Below, piece by piece: positions 22,022 through 27,388 of a DNA stretch of 64,000 nt. Source of the DNA: Stenotrophomonas maltophilia. Its GTDB lineage: Bacteria > Pseudomonadota > Gammaproteobacteria > Xanthomonadales > Xanthomonadaceae. The position numbers were made by a program, and so were the translations under genes. The first letter of the stretch is position 1. The number at the start of each line of letters is the position of its first letter. The DNA lies in NCBI RefSeq assembly GCF_002138415.1, contig NZ_CP015612.1:186001-250000 (forward strand). The letters run 5' to 3'. The notes under the pieces are model-generated. The model saw nothing but the letters and a program-made list of their open reading frames with translations, was not told the origin of the DNA and searched no databases.

Positions 22022-22283
22022 TGTATCGATGCAAGTGCGCAGCGCGGGGCCAGCGTCAATCAGGCGCACCCCGCGTGCCGCCAACTTGGCTGAAACCCTG
22101 TGAAGCCCGGCATCGGATTGATCCAGCAGGGGTTTTGCCCGGACACCCGTGACCAGAACGGGCCACCACCGATCTTCACATCAATCAAGATCGGCAAACG
22201 GGTCAAAATGAGATAGGGCGCACACTTTAAAGCGGTGCTATGCTCCGCGGCTCACCAGGGGACGCTGGCGGCGGGTGCAGGGA

Positions 22284-23324
22284 ATGACCGGCAGGGGTGC
22301 GGCCGAGAACAGTGATGTGACGTCAGGTATCGCCCGGGTGGCGATGGCCGAGATCGTGCACGCGCTGCTGTCCGCTGCCGAGGTCGCATTGTTCGCCAGA
22401 TACGCCCGTCCATGCAAGCTTCATGCCGGACAGTGGTTGTTCCAGCGTGGCCATCGCGGCGAACGGATGTACGTGATCCTCGAAGGCCAGATCGAACTGG
22501 ACTTCGGCGAGGACCTGGTGATCAAGACCCTCGGTCAGCATGAGTTCTTCGGTGAGCTTGGCCTGCTGGTCGGCGATCACCTGCGCAGCGCCAGTGCCCG
22601 CGCGCTGGCCGACTGCGAAGTGCTCGAGCTGGGCCCGGCCGACTTCCATCGCCTGGTCGAATCCGATCCTGGCCTGGTCGCCTATTTCCTGCGCCGCACG
22701 ATCATGCGCGTGCTGACCAACGAGCAGGCGCTGATCAGCCAGCTGCGCCGGCGCAACCATGATCTGGAAACCGCGCTGGACAACCTGTACATCACCACCC
22801 ATCAGCTGACCCATACACGCGAGCTGGTGCGCACCGATGAGCTGACCGGGCTGCACAACCGTCGTGGCCTCACCCTGTACCTGCAGGAATGCCGCGCCGA
22901 TGGCGAAGGGTTGCCGCAGGCACTGCTGCTGATCGACTGCGACCGCTTCAAGCAGATCAATGATCGCCACGGCCACCAGGCCGGCGACCGTGTGCTGCAG
23001 AGCATGGGCAACATCCTGCGCTCGATGGCCGGCGAACAGGACCTGGCCTGCCGCCTCGGCGGCGATGAGTTCTGCCTGATCCTGCGCCGTGGCAACCATG
23101 AGATCGTGCAGCACGCGGCCGAGTTCATCCTCAGCGCGGTGCATGGCCTGCTCGAACGCAGTCATGGCACGCCGCACGTCAGCCTGGTCAGCATCGGTGC
23201 CAGCCTGCTGGCGCCGGAGGCGGGCTGGAGCGAGTGGTACGCCAACGCGGACCGCGCGCTGTACCAGGCCAAGCGCGATGGTGGCAACTGCCTGCGCTGG
23301 GCGGATGCAGCGGACATACCTTGA
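22284..23324 (+). CDS. GGDEF protein with N-terminal cyclic-nucleotide-binding domain
   Basis: 346 residues in three parts: a cNMP-binding (Crp-like) domain at about 15-140, with FGELGLLVGDHLRSASA as the phosphate-binding cassette; a helical linker with RRRNHDLETALDNLYITTHQL; and a GGDEF domain from about 175. The signature GGDEF is intact at residues 259-263, so diguanylate cyclase activity is expected. The inhibitory I-site RxxD is replaced by GEQD, so product feedback is probably lost. The start is uncertain: ATG 22284 is preferred, GTG 22275 or ATG 22344 are possible. It ends 16 bases before a class III cyclase gene, suggesting that gene's product may be its ligand. Confidence 0.88.
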   Translation: MTGRGAAENSDVTSGIARVAMAEIVHALLSAAEVALFARYARPCKLHAGQWLFQRGHRGERMYVILEGQIELDFGEDLVIKTLGQHEFFGELGLLVGDHLRSASARALADCEVLELGPADFHRLVESDPGLVAYFLRRTIMRVLTNEQALISQLRRRNHDLETALDNLYITTHQLTHTRELVRTDELTGLHNRRGLTLYLQECRADGEGLPQALLLIDCDRFKQINDRHGHQAGDRVLQSMGNILRSMAGEQDLACRLGGDEFCLILRRGNHEIVQHAAEFILSAVHGLLERSHGTPHVSLVSIGASLLAPEAGWSEWYANADRALYQAKRDGGNCLRWADAADIP

Positions 23325-23340: not shown

Positions 23341-25809
23341 ATGAATGGCGACAACGGAACGTCGACGCCGCACAACCAGCAACTGCGTGCGCTGTTGTTC
23401 ACGGATCTGTGCGACTCCCTGCTGCTGGTTGAACGTATTGGCGATGTCGCCGCCGCCGAACTGTTCCAGGAACACGACCGGCTGGTGCTGGCGCTGCAGC
23501 AGCGCTGGAACGGCCAGTTGATCGACCGTTCCGATGGATTGTTCATGCTGTTCGAGCGCCCGATTGATGCGCTCGGGTTCGCCCTGGATTACCAGCGTGG
23601 GCTGCAGCCGCTGGGGCAGTCGCGTGATCTCCGGCTGCAGGCGCGGGCCGGGTTGCACGTGGGTGAGGTGATTCTGTGGAACAACAGCGCTGAGTCCGTT
23701 GCGCTGGGGTCCAAGGCCGTAGAGGTGGAAGGTCTGGCCAAGCCGATGGCGGCGCGCCTCATGCAGCTGGCACGACCGGGCCAACTGCTGTTGTCGGCAG
23801 CGGCCGAATCGCTGGTCCGGCGTGCAGCCTCCCAGCTTGGCGAACCGGCCGACCGGTTGTACTGGAAGTCATTCGGCCGCTGGCGCTTCCGTGGTGTGGC
23901 GCAGCCGATGGAGGTGATCGGCGTCTCGGCGGTCGGCAAGGCAGCGCTGCGACGGCCGCGTGCGAGTGACAAGGCCAGGCCGGATGTCCCGTTCTGGCGT
24001 CGCCCGATGGCGATGGCGGCGCAGGTAACGCTGGTGGCGGCCTGCGCGATGGGCTTGTGGTTGCTGACTCGTCCACAACCGGCCATCGCCTTTGCCGAAC
24101 GCGACTGGGTGGTGATCGCGGAGCCGCGCAACCTGACTGGCGATCCTCTGTTGAGCGAGTCGATCAACCAAGCGTTCCGCATCAGCCTGGAGCAGTCGCG
24201 GTATGTGAACGTGCTGAGTGACCTGAAGGTGCGCGACACCATGCAGCGCATGCTGATCAGTCCTGGGGCCGGGCTGGACCGGGGAGTTGCCAGCGAGGTG
24301 GCCCAGCGTGATGGTGCACGCGCGGTGCTGGCGCCTTCGGTCCTGGAGGTGCATGGCCGCCTGCGGGTGGCGGTCGATGTGATCGATCCGTCGACCGCGG
24401 CCACCGTCTACACGGTGCATGTCGATGGCAAAGGCCTGGACTCACTTCTGGCATCCACCGATGAAGTGGTGGGGCGTCTGCGCGAGCGTCTTGGCGAAGG
24501 CGGTATGGAGATTGATCGACATTCGGTGAATCTGCCGCAGGTGGCGACGTCCAGCCTGGACGCGCTGCGTGCTTACGCCGCAGGCATCAGGGCGCTGGAC
24601 CGGCGCCAGACCGATGAGGCGCTGGGCTTTCTCGCGCAGGCGGTGAAGGTCGACCCGGAATTTGCGATGGCCCATGTGGCAATCATGCGCATCCACTGGA
24701 TGCGCGGTGAAAGCCGCATGGCACTGGATGCCCATGCACGTGCGCAGGCATTGCGGGCGCGACTGACGCCGCGCGATGCACTGTACCTGGACGGATGGGC
24801 AGGGCAGGCCAGCGATCTGCCGGAGGCTGACATCGCCCGACGCTGGAAGCTGTTGACCGACCTGTATCCCGACTACCACGGTGGGTATGTCAATCGGGCG
24901 CTGGCGTTGTCCGGAATGGGGCGCTACGCCGAAGCGGTGACCGTGGTGCAGCCGGCGCGGGTTCCGCAGGCGTGGGCCCGCAGCCACACGCTGGATTTCT
25001 CAGGACGGTTGAAGCTGGCTGCGGGCAACACCAACGGTGCGGTTGCGGATTTCCGCATGGCCGGTGATGTCGGAGGCTGGAGAACCAGCGCCAACCTGGC
25101 TACGGCGATGGCCGTACTCGGAGACTGGAGCGCTGCACGTGCCCAGTTGGCGGGCGTGCCAGCCGATGATTTCGGCGCCCGCATGCAGCAGGCAGCGGTG
25201 CTGGTCGATCTCGGTGAGCTGGACAAGGCCGAAGAGGTTGCCCGATCACTGCAGGCGCAGTGCAATGAGCCGGCCCTTTGCCGGCTGGCGTCGGCCTGGC
25301 GCGCCAGCATTGCCGGCATGGCAGGAGAGCGGTCGGATCCCGCAGCGAGCCGCAAGCGGATTGGAGAGGCGTTGGCCGACCTGCGCCAGCAGCCCAGCGG
25401 CAATCTGCACACCCGGCAATTCATGGTTCTGGGCCTGATTCGCCTGGCTCAGCGCGAAGGCGTGGACGTGACGCCCCAGCTGCGCTTGGCGCGTCGCGCG
25501 ATCGACCTCAGGAGCGACCCACGCTCGCGCCAGTTGCTGGACATCATCGAAGCCACCCGCGAGTTGCATGCCGGGCAGGCGGTCGCGGCCGTCGAGCGCC
25601 TGCTGCCGTGGGCCGACGGCACGGAGTTGTACCAGTTGCACGTGGCGCTGCGCGATGCAAGGCATGCCTCGGGAGATTCCGCGGCGGCCGCTGCAGAAAC
25701 ACGCTGGCTGGCCGCGCATCGCGGTCGAGCCTATGCCGAGGATTCCGGCAATTACATCCTGCAGGCGCTCAATGTCCGTGACAGCCGCGCACGGCAGGGC
25801 GCGGACTGA
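23341..25809 (+). CDS. Class III cyclase-TPR membrane protein of a peptide-modification locus
   Basis: 822 residues. Residues ~15-180 form a class III nucleotide cyclase domain: FTDLCDS with metal-binding Asp22, the second Asp65 in RSDGLF, and LQARAGLHVGEV. A membrane helix lies near 222-240. A ~130-residue extracytoplasmic region follows (AERDWVVIAEPRNLTGDPLL), then a long TPR-like helical part to the C-terminus. Proteins of this plan accompany a short NH-type leader peptide and a SagB-like dehydrogenase in xanthomonads, and are known as the putative peptide modification system cyclase. GAGAGACCGGCG precedes the ATG at 23341. Likely co-transcribed with the GGDEF gene. Which nucleotide it makes, and what it has to do with the peptide, is unknown. 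Confidence 0.8.
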   Translation: MNGDNGTSTPHNQQLRALLFTDLCDSLLLVERIGDVAAAELFQEHDRLVLALQQRWNGQLIDRSDGLFMLFERPIDALGFALDYQRGLQPLGQSRDLRLQARAGLHVGEVILWNNSAESVALGSKAVEVEGLAKPMAARLMQLARPGQLLLSAAAESLVRRAASQLGEPADRLYWKSFGRWRFRGVAQPMEVIGVSAVGKAALRRPRASDKARPDVPFWRRPMAMAAQVTLVAACAMGLWLLTRPQPAIAFAERDWVVIAEPRNLTGDPLLSESINQAFRISLEQSRYVNVLSDLKVRDTMQRMLISPGAGLDRGVASEVAQRDGARAVLAPSVLEVHGRLRVAVDVIDPSTAATVYTVHVDGKGLDSLLASTDEVVGRLRERLGEGGMEIDRHSVNLPQVATSSLDALRAYAAGIRALDRRQTDEALGFLAQAVKVDPEFAMAHVAIMRIHWMRGESRMALDAHARAQALRARLTPRDALYLDGWAGQASDLPEADIARRWKLLTDLYPDYHGGYVNRALALSGMGRYAEAVTVVQPARVPQAWARSHTLDFSGRLKLAAGNTNGAVADFRMAGDVGGWRTSANLATAMAVLGDWSAARAQLAGVPADDFGARMQQAAVLVDLGELDKAEEVARSLQAQCNEPALCRLASAWRASIAGMAGERSDPAASRKRIGEALADLRQQPSGNLHTRQFMVLGLIRLAQREGVDVTPQLRLARRAIDLRSDPRSRQLLDIIEATRELHAGQAVAAVERLLPWADGTELYQLHVALRDARHASGDSAAAAAETRWLAAHRGRAYAEDSGNYILQALNVRDSRARQGAD

Positions 25810-25819
25810 CAGCGCAGCA

Positions 25820-26104
25820 TCAGCTGTCGGCGCCGGCTTCGAAGAAGTGCGGCAGGACGAAGGCGCCACAGGACTGCAGGTGCTGTTTCAGGGCCTCGGC
25901 AGTAGCGGCAAAGGCTTCCTTGCTGGCCAGCGTGTCCACTGGAGCGCACATCGAGCCATCGGCATTGGGAGCAATGCCCAGACCCTGCAGCGCAAGGCTG
26001 GGAGAAGCGGCGAAGGCACTGCGGAAGCCGTCATCGCTCTGCAGCAGCGACAGTACCTGGGCGGCTTGTGCAGCCGTAAGCAGGGTCTTGTCGGAAGTAC
26101 TCAT
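25820..26104 (-). CDS. Putative modified-peptide precursor (nitrile-hydratase-like leader)
   Basis: 94 residues, running against both neighbours. Residues 8-44 look like a leader of the NHLP type: alternating helix with LSLLQSDDGFRSAFAASPSLALQGLGI. A possible core follows with two cysteines, Cys53 in GSMCAPVD and Cys79 in LQSCGAFVLPHFF, and an acidic end EAGADS. No double-Gly cleavage site is obvious. By pattern and neighbours I take it for the target peptide of the linked dehydrogenase. It could also be a small structural protein of the locus. Only 10 bases separate its stop from that of the cyclase gene. Confidence 0.75.
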   Translation of the reverse strand: MSTSDKTLLTAAQAAQVLSLLQSDDGFRSAFAASPSLALQGLGIAPNADGSMCAPVDTLASKEAFAATAEALKQHLQSCGAFVLPHFFEAGADS

Positions 26105-26120
26105 GGTGATCGCGCTGGCC

Positions 26121-26158
26121 GTTGCAGGTAGGGTTCTCTTGTTTCGGCCTGTTGCAGG
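26121..26158. promoter_or_regulatory. Direct repeat GTTGCAGG in the divergent promoter
   Basis: GTTGCAGG occurs at 26121-26128 and 26151-26158, exactly 30 bases apart (about three helical turns), in the 84-base gap between the peptide gene and the dehydrogenase gene. It may be a pair of activator or repressor half-sites. No partner is known. Confidence 0.35.
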
Positions 26159-26188
26159 GAAAGTTTAGCTTCAGCGCGCCCTGGGGCG

Positions 26189-27388
26189 ATGCATGGCATC
26201 CTGCGCGTCCCGCTCCACACCGATGCCTCCATGCAGATCAGACGTTGCTCCATCGTGATGTTCGAGCCCCGTGCGGATGTGGCGCTGGACCTTGACCTGC
26301 TGCTCAAGGGAGAGGCCGGCCTGGGCACCACGATGCAGTGGTACGCGCTGGCCGCGCACCTTGATGCGCCGCTCAGGGTGGAGGCTGGCGACGTGGAGCT
26401 GTTGGGCCGTATCGTGCCCGACGCCTGGGTCGACGCGGCGCACAGCAACATTGGCGAAGCCGATCTCGACCGGTTGCTGCACAGTGGTCTGCTGATCAGT
26501 GACGACGCAGCCTACGCTGGGCACCGCCAGCGAGACCAGCGTGTACGCGATGCCAGCTGGTGGCCGCTGTCGGCGCTGGCCCATCGGCTGGGGCGCTGGA
26601 GCGGCATCGACAGCGCGCAGCAGATGCGCGAAGAGAAGCTTGTCACGGCGCAGGACCTGCGACGTAGATTCGGCCCTCCACCACCGGCCGTGATGCCCCC
26701 CGCCACCGAGCCGCTGGCACTGCCCCTGCCGGAAGACGAGCCGCGTGATCTGCTCCTTGCGAGGCGCGCGACCTGCCGCAACTTCGATACCGCACGATCA
26801 TTGCCGTTGCGCATGCTCGCCCAGGTGTTCAAGCGGACGGTGAAGGCGCACGCCGTGGTGGAGCCCGGCGAAGACATGGCCTTTCTGAAGAAGCATGTTC
26901 CTTCCGGTGGAGGCCTGCATCCGCTGGAAACCTATGTCATCGCCGTGGACGTCGATGGCCTTGCCGCAGGTGTCTATCACTATCACGCGCTGGAACACAC
27001 CTTGCGGCCGCTGCCGGTGGATGGCACCGGTCTTCGCGGCATCGTGCTGAAGCTGCTGGCTGGACAGGACTGGTTCGCGGCTGCGCCACTGCACATCATC
27101 CAGGTTGCGCGGTTCCCGCGAAGCTTCTGGAAGTATCGCAACCATCCCAAGGCCTATCGGGCAGTGCTGCTGGATGCAGGCCACCTGTCACAACAGTGGA
27201 TGTTGTCTGCCACCGAACTTGGGCTGGCGGCCTACGTCACCGCTGCCATCAATGAAGTGGATATCGAAGCCCTGCTGGGCCTGGATGGCATCGACGCCGG
27301 TCCGGTAATGATGTGTGGATTGGGGTGGCGGGCAGCGGACCAGACCACCAGCGAGTTTGATCCTCTGCAGCGGGTCTGGCCGGGTTGA
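26189..27388 (+). CDS. SagB-type peptide maturation dehydrogenase
   Basis: 399 residues. The C-terminal half is an FMN nitroreductase domain of the SagB/ThcOx type: RRATCRNFD near residue 192 (phosphate contact), PSGGGLHPLETYVIAV near 240, and RAVLLDAGHLSQQWMLSATELGLAAYV near 325. In azole-forming peptides SagB enzymes oxidise azolines to azoles. No YcaO or ThiF-like cyclodehydratase is visible here, so the reaction may differ. The N-terminal ~170 residues are a poorly conserved region with a winged-helix-like part. Start ATG 26189 preferred; ATG 26231 is possible. Divergent from the peptide gene by 84 bases. Confidence 0.82.
   Translation: MHGILRVPLHTDASMQIRRCSIVMFEPRADVALDLDLLLKGEAGLGTTMQWYALAAHLDAPLRVEAGDVELLGRIVPDAWVDAAHSNIGEADLDRLLHSGLLISDDAAYAGHRQRDQRVRDASWWPLSALAHRLGRWSGIDSAQQMREEKLVTAQDLRRRFGPPPPAVMPPATEPLALPLPEDEPRDLLLARRATCRNFDTARSLPLRMLAQVFKRTVKAHAVVEPGEDMAFLKKHVPSGGGLHPLETYVIAVDVDGLAAGVYHYHALEHTLRPLPVDGTGLRGIVLKLLAGQDWFAAAPLHIIQVARFPRSFWKYRNHPKAYRAVLLDAGHLSQQWMLSATELGLAAYVTAAINEVDIEALLGLDGIDAGPVMMCGLGWRAADQTTSEFDPLQRVWPG

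Follow-up and report, generated by a model that had tools for sequence, protein, structure and literature searches.

An allelic peptide, dehydrogenase and sensor island beside a putative cGMP receptor gene in Stenotrophomonas maltophilia

Introduction

The closest described relative of the locus examined here comes from Xanthomonas campestris, where XC_0250, a class III cyclase with tetratricopeptide repeats (TPRs), converts GTP to cyclic GMP (cGMP), and the adjoining gene encodes XC_0249, which binds cGMP, upon which production of cyclic di-GMP (c-di-GMP) rises; mutants lacking either protein form less biofilm and are less virulent on plants, and the same work mentions that Stenotrophomonas maltophilia has adjacent homologues (PMC3770947). 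We analyzed a 64,000-nucleotide stretch of S. maltophilia (NCBI RefSeq assembly GCF_002138415.1, contig NZ_CP015612.1, positions 186,001 to 250,000; hereafter the window), in which a gene for a cyclase of this kind lies at 23341–27388 with genes for a small precursor peptide and a flavin mononucleotide (FMN)-dependent dehydrogenase, directly downstream of a gene for an XC_0249-like receptor. This three-gene segment is an allelic island, which is new here, and we give an even chance to the proposal that it supplies the variable portion of a four-gene module for peptide-to-cGMP signaling, in which the modified peptide would gate a transmembrane guanylate cyclase.

In the Xanthomonas pathway, biofilm was restored by the catalytic domain of XC_0250 by itself, which means that activity does not depend on the TPR part, and the function of that TPR domain was not known in 2013 (PMC3770947) and was still described as uncharacterized in a 2019 review (PMC8042644). 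XC_0249 also interacts with RpfG of the diffusible signal factor (DSF) quorum-sensing system (PMC3749722). Our locus shares with this pathway a TPR cyclase adjoining a protein with cNMP-binding and GGDEF domains and the retained cGMP-contact residues; it differs in its peptide and dehydrogenase, neither of which is mentioned in the portions of the main text of PMC3770947 available to us.

Two other known systems invite comparison. The NCBIfam families TIGR04509, TIGR04510 and TIGR04511 name the peptide, cyclase and dehydrogenase as a putative peptide modification system, as the first-pass annotation of this DNA had stated; the names are silent on cGMP, on the upstream cNMP-GGDEF gene and on allelic exchange. 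In ComQXPA of Bacillus, a modifying enzyme and a variable peptide are paired with the receptor ComP, whose N-terminal sensor domain is variable and whose cytoplasmic part is conserved, giving rise to pherotype groups (PMC4008528). The locus described here would work like that system without being a member of it: the peptide tail co-varies with the sensor, the output is conserved and alleles are exchanged at one site, but the setting is Gram-negative and the protein families are different, with an FMN dehydrogenase and a putative guanylate cyclase in place of an isoprenyl transferase and a histidine kinase. Among the matches listed in a search of open-licence PMC articles, we found no paper linking the peptide genes to the cGMP genes, and the available portions of PMC8939145, PMC9576775 and PMC12703449 do not treat this system.

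Results and discussion

DNA identity was computed in 300-base intervals against three sister loci (L121, L101 and L120). Against one sister locus it was roughly 0.96 to either side of the island. Against L121, whose receptor protein is 99% identical to that of the window, identity was 0.89–0.97 over 18.9–23.1 kb (the first interval, at the alignment edge, gave 0.41), 0.83 in the interval straddling the cyclase start, 0.44–0.75 over 23.4–27.6 kb and 0.93–0.99 over 27.6–31.2 kb. The pattern against L101 and L120 was similar, with lower flanks (0.81–0.97, one interval 0.62). Two Xanthomonas arboricola strains display the same kind of exchange: their receptors are 98% and their catalytic domains 100% identical, with only 28% identity in the TPR region, 34% in the peptide tail and 44% in the dehydrogenase, and flanking intervals at 0.92–0.98 except for three (0.84, 0.70, 0.87). 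The Xanthomonas break falls within the cyclase gene, past the part that encodes the catalytic domain; that of the window starts at the cyclase gene, the catalytic domain being 0.70–0.77 identical to those of the three sisters. Xanthomonas carries at least three allele groups. Their TPR regions, tails and dehydrogenases resemble alleles from other genera more than they resemble one another, and their receptors and catalytic domains have the closest counterparts within Xanthomonas. A quick tree of 52 TPR rows rejects a single clade for the 19 Xanthomonas rows (approximately unbiased test, AU p 2.8e-7).

Within the island, the peptide tail varies most closely with the sensor. Across 102 distinct single-copy loci, tail distances correlated with those of the TPR region at 0.77, the leader at 0.67, the dehydrogenase at 0.45, the receptor at 0.37, the catalytic domain at 0.32 and the cyclase alpha/beta domain at 0.30. 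Controlling for receptor, leader and dehydrogenase left a partial r of 0.52 between tail and TPR region (0/500 permutations, which do not model the tree, for two regions that are both fast-evolving and physically adjacent), and their plain correlation was 0.64 after thinning to 55 loci; the partial r between tail and dehydrogenase, given receptor, leader and TPR region, was 0.006 (227/500 permutations). The leader kept a partial r of 0.44 with the TPR region (duplicates included), so it is not tied to the enzyme alone. In pairwise comparison, among 243 close pairs, defined by receptors and catalytic domains at least 85% identical, TPR region and tail were both unlike in 154, both alike in 74, intermediate in 15 and opposed in none, where alike means at least 0.6 and unlike below 0.45 (TPR) or 0.5 (tail), thresholds set on two-humped histograms after their range was roughly known. 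When pairs were instead selected on aceA (n = 585, duplicates included), both regions were unlike in 425, both alike in 100 and intermediate in 58.

The first-pass annotation had proposed profile and co-occurrence searches for the trio, and both favor it. The three open reading frames (ORFs) are where it placed them, and each product far exceeds its curated NCBIfam cut-off, with 1025.5 bits for TIGR04510 (cut-off 400), 66 for TIGR04509 (34) and 498.7 for TIGR04511 (240). The closest protein relatives that carry a name come from Stenotrophomonas. We surveyed 198 genomes from the taxonomic family to which the window belongs, accepting peptide and dehydrogenase hits at E <= 0.001 and cyclase hits above cut-off: all three genes were found in 119, none in 73 and another combination in 6, namely the cyclase only (G054), a weak dehydrogenase match only (G130), the cyclase with a partial dehydrogenase (G126), and peptide with dehydrogenase but no cyclase above cut-off (G011, G120, G175). 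The peptide family as a whole occurs in 122 of the 198. Outside the family, 0/271 genomes of the class passed the TIGR04511 cut-off, with weaker matches in 57. Relatives were gathered from whole genomes, a word search for peptide homologues having returned just 2 proteins; loci matching any trio member numbered 129 when distinct, and the set of 111 relatives used for residue counts includes 9 duplicate loci.

What the first-pass annotation overlooked is a fourth conserved gene, which ends sixteen bases upstream of the cyclase and encodes the receptor. Of the four genes, it is the one that directly precedes the cyclase, in the same orientation, in 120/129 distinct loci; precisely the arrangement receptor (+), cyclase (+), peptide (-), dehydrogenase (+) recurs in 95/129 (104/141 counting duplicates). 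At E <= 1e-45 the receptor is present in 115 of the 122 peptide genomes and 7 of the 76 others (Fisher p 1.4e-36, ignoring relatedness), which makes it more than a mere aceBA neighbor. Its best PDB match is 5h5o_A (149 bits), which we infer to be XC_0249 from the residue register, the entry given in the original paper being 4KG1: counted along the 5h5o_A chain, the published cGMP contacts of XC_0249 (F73, E90, H98, N145 and E146) fall on F, E, H, N and E. All five are kept in the window receptor, and across the relatives four are present in 111/111, N145 in 104/111 and GGDEF in 111/111.

The model of the cyclase catalytic domain has a class III fold and matches the cyclase domains of Rv1900c and Ma1120 (TM-score by target up to 0.84). 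D22, D35, D62, D65, E128, L132, A133, K134, P135 and R139 are retained in 111/111 relatives, with D22 and D65 assigned by alignment as the class III metal-site aspartates, and the predicted periplasmic alpha/beta domain is presumably TolB-like. Pfam Guanylate_cyc gave no match to this protein, which speaks against a simple reading as a cyclase, and the canonical substrate-specifying residues look replaced by eye. These two grounds first suggested a dead pseudo-enzyme, an idea that we dropped in view of the near-invariance of the site and the reported activity of XC_0250. Guanylate cyclase activity is published for XC_0250; residue conservation suggests it for the window protein. That TIGR04510 is the family of XC_0250 rests on architecture, on the neighboring gene and on residue numbers: the six residues reported critical in XC_0250 (D41, D71, L73, A150, L157, A161) all fit 6/186 relatives at some start codon, including the X. 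arboricola protein of L122 at its first Met. In X. arboricola numbering the published D41 falls in a VEKLGD motif, whereas alignment with other class III cyclases picks out the TD motif; should XC_0250 share this N-terminus, the published metal-site assignment may be displaced by one motif. In two loci (L111:10240-12360 and L224:9809-11929) a second sensor ORF, with a membrane helix and TPRs and no catalytic domain, stands behind the dehydrogenase; each is nearest to the L101 allele (47.5 and 48.0% identity, respectively) and looks like a displaced orphan allele.

The dehydrogenase has a SagB/ThcOx/McbC-like fold, aligns with ThcOx and BmdC and passes the TIGR03605 cut-off; its N-terminal part, a candidate leader-recognition (RRE) domain, lies inside the aligned range, although a whole-model search says little about that domain. 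K315 and Y316 form an invariant pair, and a Lys-Tyr dyad has a role in SagB-like dehydrogenases. Translation probably starts at M15 (base 26231), because MxxRRC opens the family alignment and the mean predicted local distance difference test (pLDDT) over the first ten residues of the model is 57. Unlike the SagB, ThcOx, McbC and BmdC oxidases, this enzyme occurs without a YcaO above cut-off in 110/122 peptide genomes. The first-pass annotation was right that YcaO is missing, since no match was found anywhere in this genome at E <= 0.001, and YcaO or azole chemistry is accordingly unlikely here.

The precursor follows the ribosomally synthesized and post-translationally modified peptide (RiPP) plan of a conserved leader (mean distance 0.64) and a variable C-terminal part (0.82). 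The earlier assignment of two core cysteines to it is doubtful, with C53 located between helical leader and LASKE helix and C79 in the variable tail. A Cys occurs within a 17-column stretch around C53 in 91/111 relatives and in the variable tail in 37/111. Also as first noted, neither a transporter nor a protease is encoded among the seven flanking genes scanned (17.8–33.0 kb), where we likewise found no adjacent peptidase-ABC transporter of the nitrile hydratase-like leader peptide (NHLP)/PCAT export type; ThiF-like and radical-SAM enzymes are absent from these seven genes, to which that check was limited. Elsewhere in the genome there are three C39 peptidase matches (G000:C1 4153942, 4334105, 2380232), and export in trans is possible, though the window peptide has no Gly-Gly. 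A scan of the intergenic region between peptide and dehydrogenase gave no sigma-70-like or terminator-like match. The layout of the locus is given in Table 1.

Table 1. Features of the four-gene locus, in positions of the window
Feature	Position	Strand	Remarks
cNMP-binding and GGDEF protein, XC_0249-like	22275..23324	+	Upstream member, outside the allelic island; Pfam cNMP_binding and GGDEF
Transmembrane class III (putative guanylate) cyclase with TPR sensor	23341..25809	+	822 aa; TIGR04510 / XC_0250-like
Cyclase catalytic domain, aa 14-197	23380..23931	+	Structure model matches cyclase domains; conserved residues
Transmembrane helix of cyclase, aa 222-242	24004..24066	+	Model helix; N-terminus predicted inside
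Predicted periplasmic alpha/beta domain of cyclase, aa 255-383	24103..24489	+	Secondary structure of model
Predicted periplasmic TPR solenoid of cyclase, aa 406-821	24556..25803	+	Hypervariable; co-varies with peptide tail
NHLP-related precursor peptide, TIGR04509	25820..26104	-	94 aa; convergent with cyclase gene
Peptide C-terminal tail aa 77-94, candidate core or signal	25823..25876	-	Hypervariable; co-varies with TPR region
Divergent intergenic region, peptide/dehydrogenase (start taken at M15)	26105..26230	.	Sequence
FMN-dependent SagB/ThcOx-like peptide dehydrogenase, TIGR04511	26189..27388	+	399 aa; likely start 26231
Dehydrogenase N-terminal domain aa 15-105, candidate leader-binding	26231..26503	+	Strand/helix order in model
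K315-Y316 dyad of dehydrogenase	27131..27136	+	Invariant, 66/66 relatives
Allelic island (cassette, conserved flanks)	23341..27388	.	Sliding identity against three sister loci; edges +/- about 300 bases

These results also bear on the earlier description of the locus as a RiPP modification system. The peptide and the SagB/ThcOx-like dehydrogenase do look like a small modification pair lacking YcaO, so this part stands. For the cyclase, however, a role in modification chemistry is not the best reading: given its match to the published guanylate cyclase XC_0250 and its position next to a relative of the cGMP receptor XC_0249, it is probably a signaling receptor, and the functional unit is probably a four-gene signaling module rather than a three-gene biosynthetic locus.

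Starting from the observed gene set, order, co-occurrence, island and co-variation, we propose that the dehydrogenase, bound to the conserved precursor leader, oxidizes a tail residue without YcaO, perhaps by alpha,beta-desaturation. The tail would then be released and reach the periplasm by a route that we do not specify, the weakest step of the scheme, where it would bind the TPR solenoid of the membrane cyclase, as the domain-specific co-variation and cassette exchange suggest. Binding would alter cytoplasmic cGMP synthesis, and cGMP would raise c-di-GMP by binding to the GGDEF protein encoded upstream, at its cNMP domain; for these last two steps the activities are published for XC_0250 and XC_0249, and here we see conservation of the residues. 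Peptide, dehydrogenase and sensor would be swapped as one allele over a constant cytoplasmic output, as in pherotype loci, and it is because a conserved output with a jointly exchanged sensor, peptide and enzyme is the ComQXPA plan that we propose the peptide as the signal for the receptor cyclase. In its fullest form, to which we assign somewhat less than an even chance, the system would be a Gram-negative pherotype system in which a transmembrane guanylate cyclase specifically recognizes a flavin-oxidized ribosomal peptide as its ligand, cGMP acts through the GGDEF protein on c-di-GMP, and peptide, enzyme and sensor are swapped as one allele, also between genera. Such an arrangement would loosely resemble a bacterial natriuretic-peptide receptor.

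Several observations weigh against this proposal. There is no single modifiable residue that every tail shares, and the locus has no exporter, signal sequence or maturation protease. The receptor is missing at E <= 1e-45 from 7/122 peptide genomes and occurs without the peptide in 7 genomes, one of which (G054, locus L148) keeps receptor and cyclase and has neither peptide nor dehydrogenase. In 2 of the 585 aceA-selected pairs an unlike TPR region accompanies a like tail (the converse was seen in 0), and some of the pattern could arise from nothing more than linkage, given the gene order TPR, tail, leader, dehydrogenase. The apparent replacement of the substrate-specifying residues belongs on this side as well, as does the absence of XC_0250 itself from the fetched loci.

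The lack of an exporter or signal sequence would be explained if the peptide stayed in the cell, with the FMN enzyme using it as a redox-responsive cofactor or regulator of the cyclase or the GGDEF protein and the TPR region sensing something else. The long conserved leader region and its co-variation with the dehydrogenase (partial r 0.27; 0/500 permutations) fit this alternative, which we nonetheless consider unlikely: K+R is higher before than after the transmembrane helix in 111/111 relatives, which predicts the TPR region outside, yet the tail co-varies with this region and not with the catalytic domain in the cytoplasm (partial r 0.04 for the latter, controlling for the receptor).

It is quite unlikely that the peptide is a narrow-spectrum bacteriocin, with competition driving cassette exchange and the cyclase sensing damage or self. 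Cassette exchange, the orphan sensor ORFs and the gene arrays of L127 and L128 do resemble polymorphic toxin loci. However, no immunity or export gene was found among the flanking genes scanned, and the module mostly keeps one chromosomal site (aceA lies within the fetched stretch of 104/111 loci) in operon-like order with the cGMP receptor. The published phenotypes of cyclase mutants concern biofilm, plant virulence and gene regulation (PMC3770947).

A recombination hot spot could also exchange the block, tail and TPR region co-varying by adjacency with no ligand-receptor relation; the 3' ends of the cyclase and peptide genes are 10 bp apart and the correlations track gene order. This seems quite unlikely as well, as the correlation with the tail steps up near the start of the TPR region and is then flat (0.62–0.72 from residue 441) instead of rising toward the peptide gene, and L151 and L104 have like dehydrogenases (0.82) and leaders (0.79) while TPR region (0.40) and tail (0.30) both change. 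Finally, despite the SagB/ThcOx/McbC-like fold and invariant Lys-Tyr pair, a classical thiazole/oxazole-modified microcin (TOMM), with azolines made by a YcaO cyclodehydratase encoded elsewhere and aromatized by this dehydrogenase, is extremely improbable given a YcaO above cut-off in just 12/122 peptide genomes (0/76 others), none in this genome, and 13/111 precursors without any Cys (though 109/111 tails have Ser or Thr).

The survey of relatives also yielded several variant loci. L127 and L128 are arrays with several peptides, dehydrogenases and cyclases and an extra gene family of about 250 aa, the receptor gene lying elsewhere in both genomes, and L113 has five near-identical tandem peptide copies, its cyclase lying beyond the dehydrogenase. 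The Xanthomonas phaseoli module of L217 is in pieces and the Xanthomonas vasicola dehydrogenase of L172 is matched only partly, apparently through natural cassette decay; L225, a record titled Bacillus subtilis SK7B5 with a Stenotrophomonas-like module, is probably a contaminated or mislabeled assembly. A small, apparently secreted protein family occurs in 10/61 loci, often adjoining the dehydrogenase (L102:8206-8769, L103:8202-8693 and others), and its L102 member has no Pfam match. A prolyl-oligopeptidase (S9) gene (L122:10691-12859) lies inside the fetched stretch of 8/61 loci, sometimes adjoining the dehydrogenase, and is either a possible processing peptidase or there by chance.

Conclusions

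The Xanthomonas cGMP pathway is likely to receive an input through the TPR part of its guanylate cyclase. If the proposed module is correct, an orphan peptide family with members in most of the family genomes surveyed would be that input, SagB-like dehydrogenases would gain a YcaO-free role in signaling, and these bacteria would have a strain-specific form of cell–cell communication via cGMP, for which the locus supplies clean, testable allele groups.

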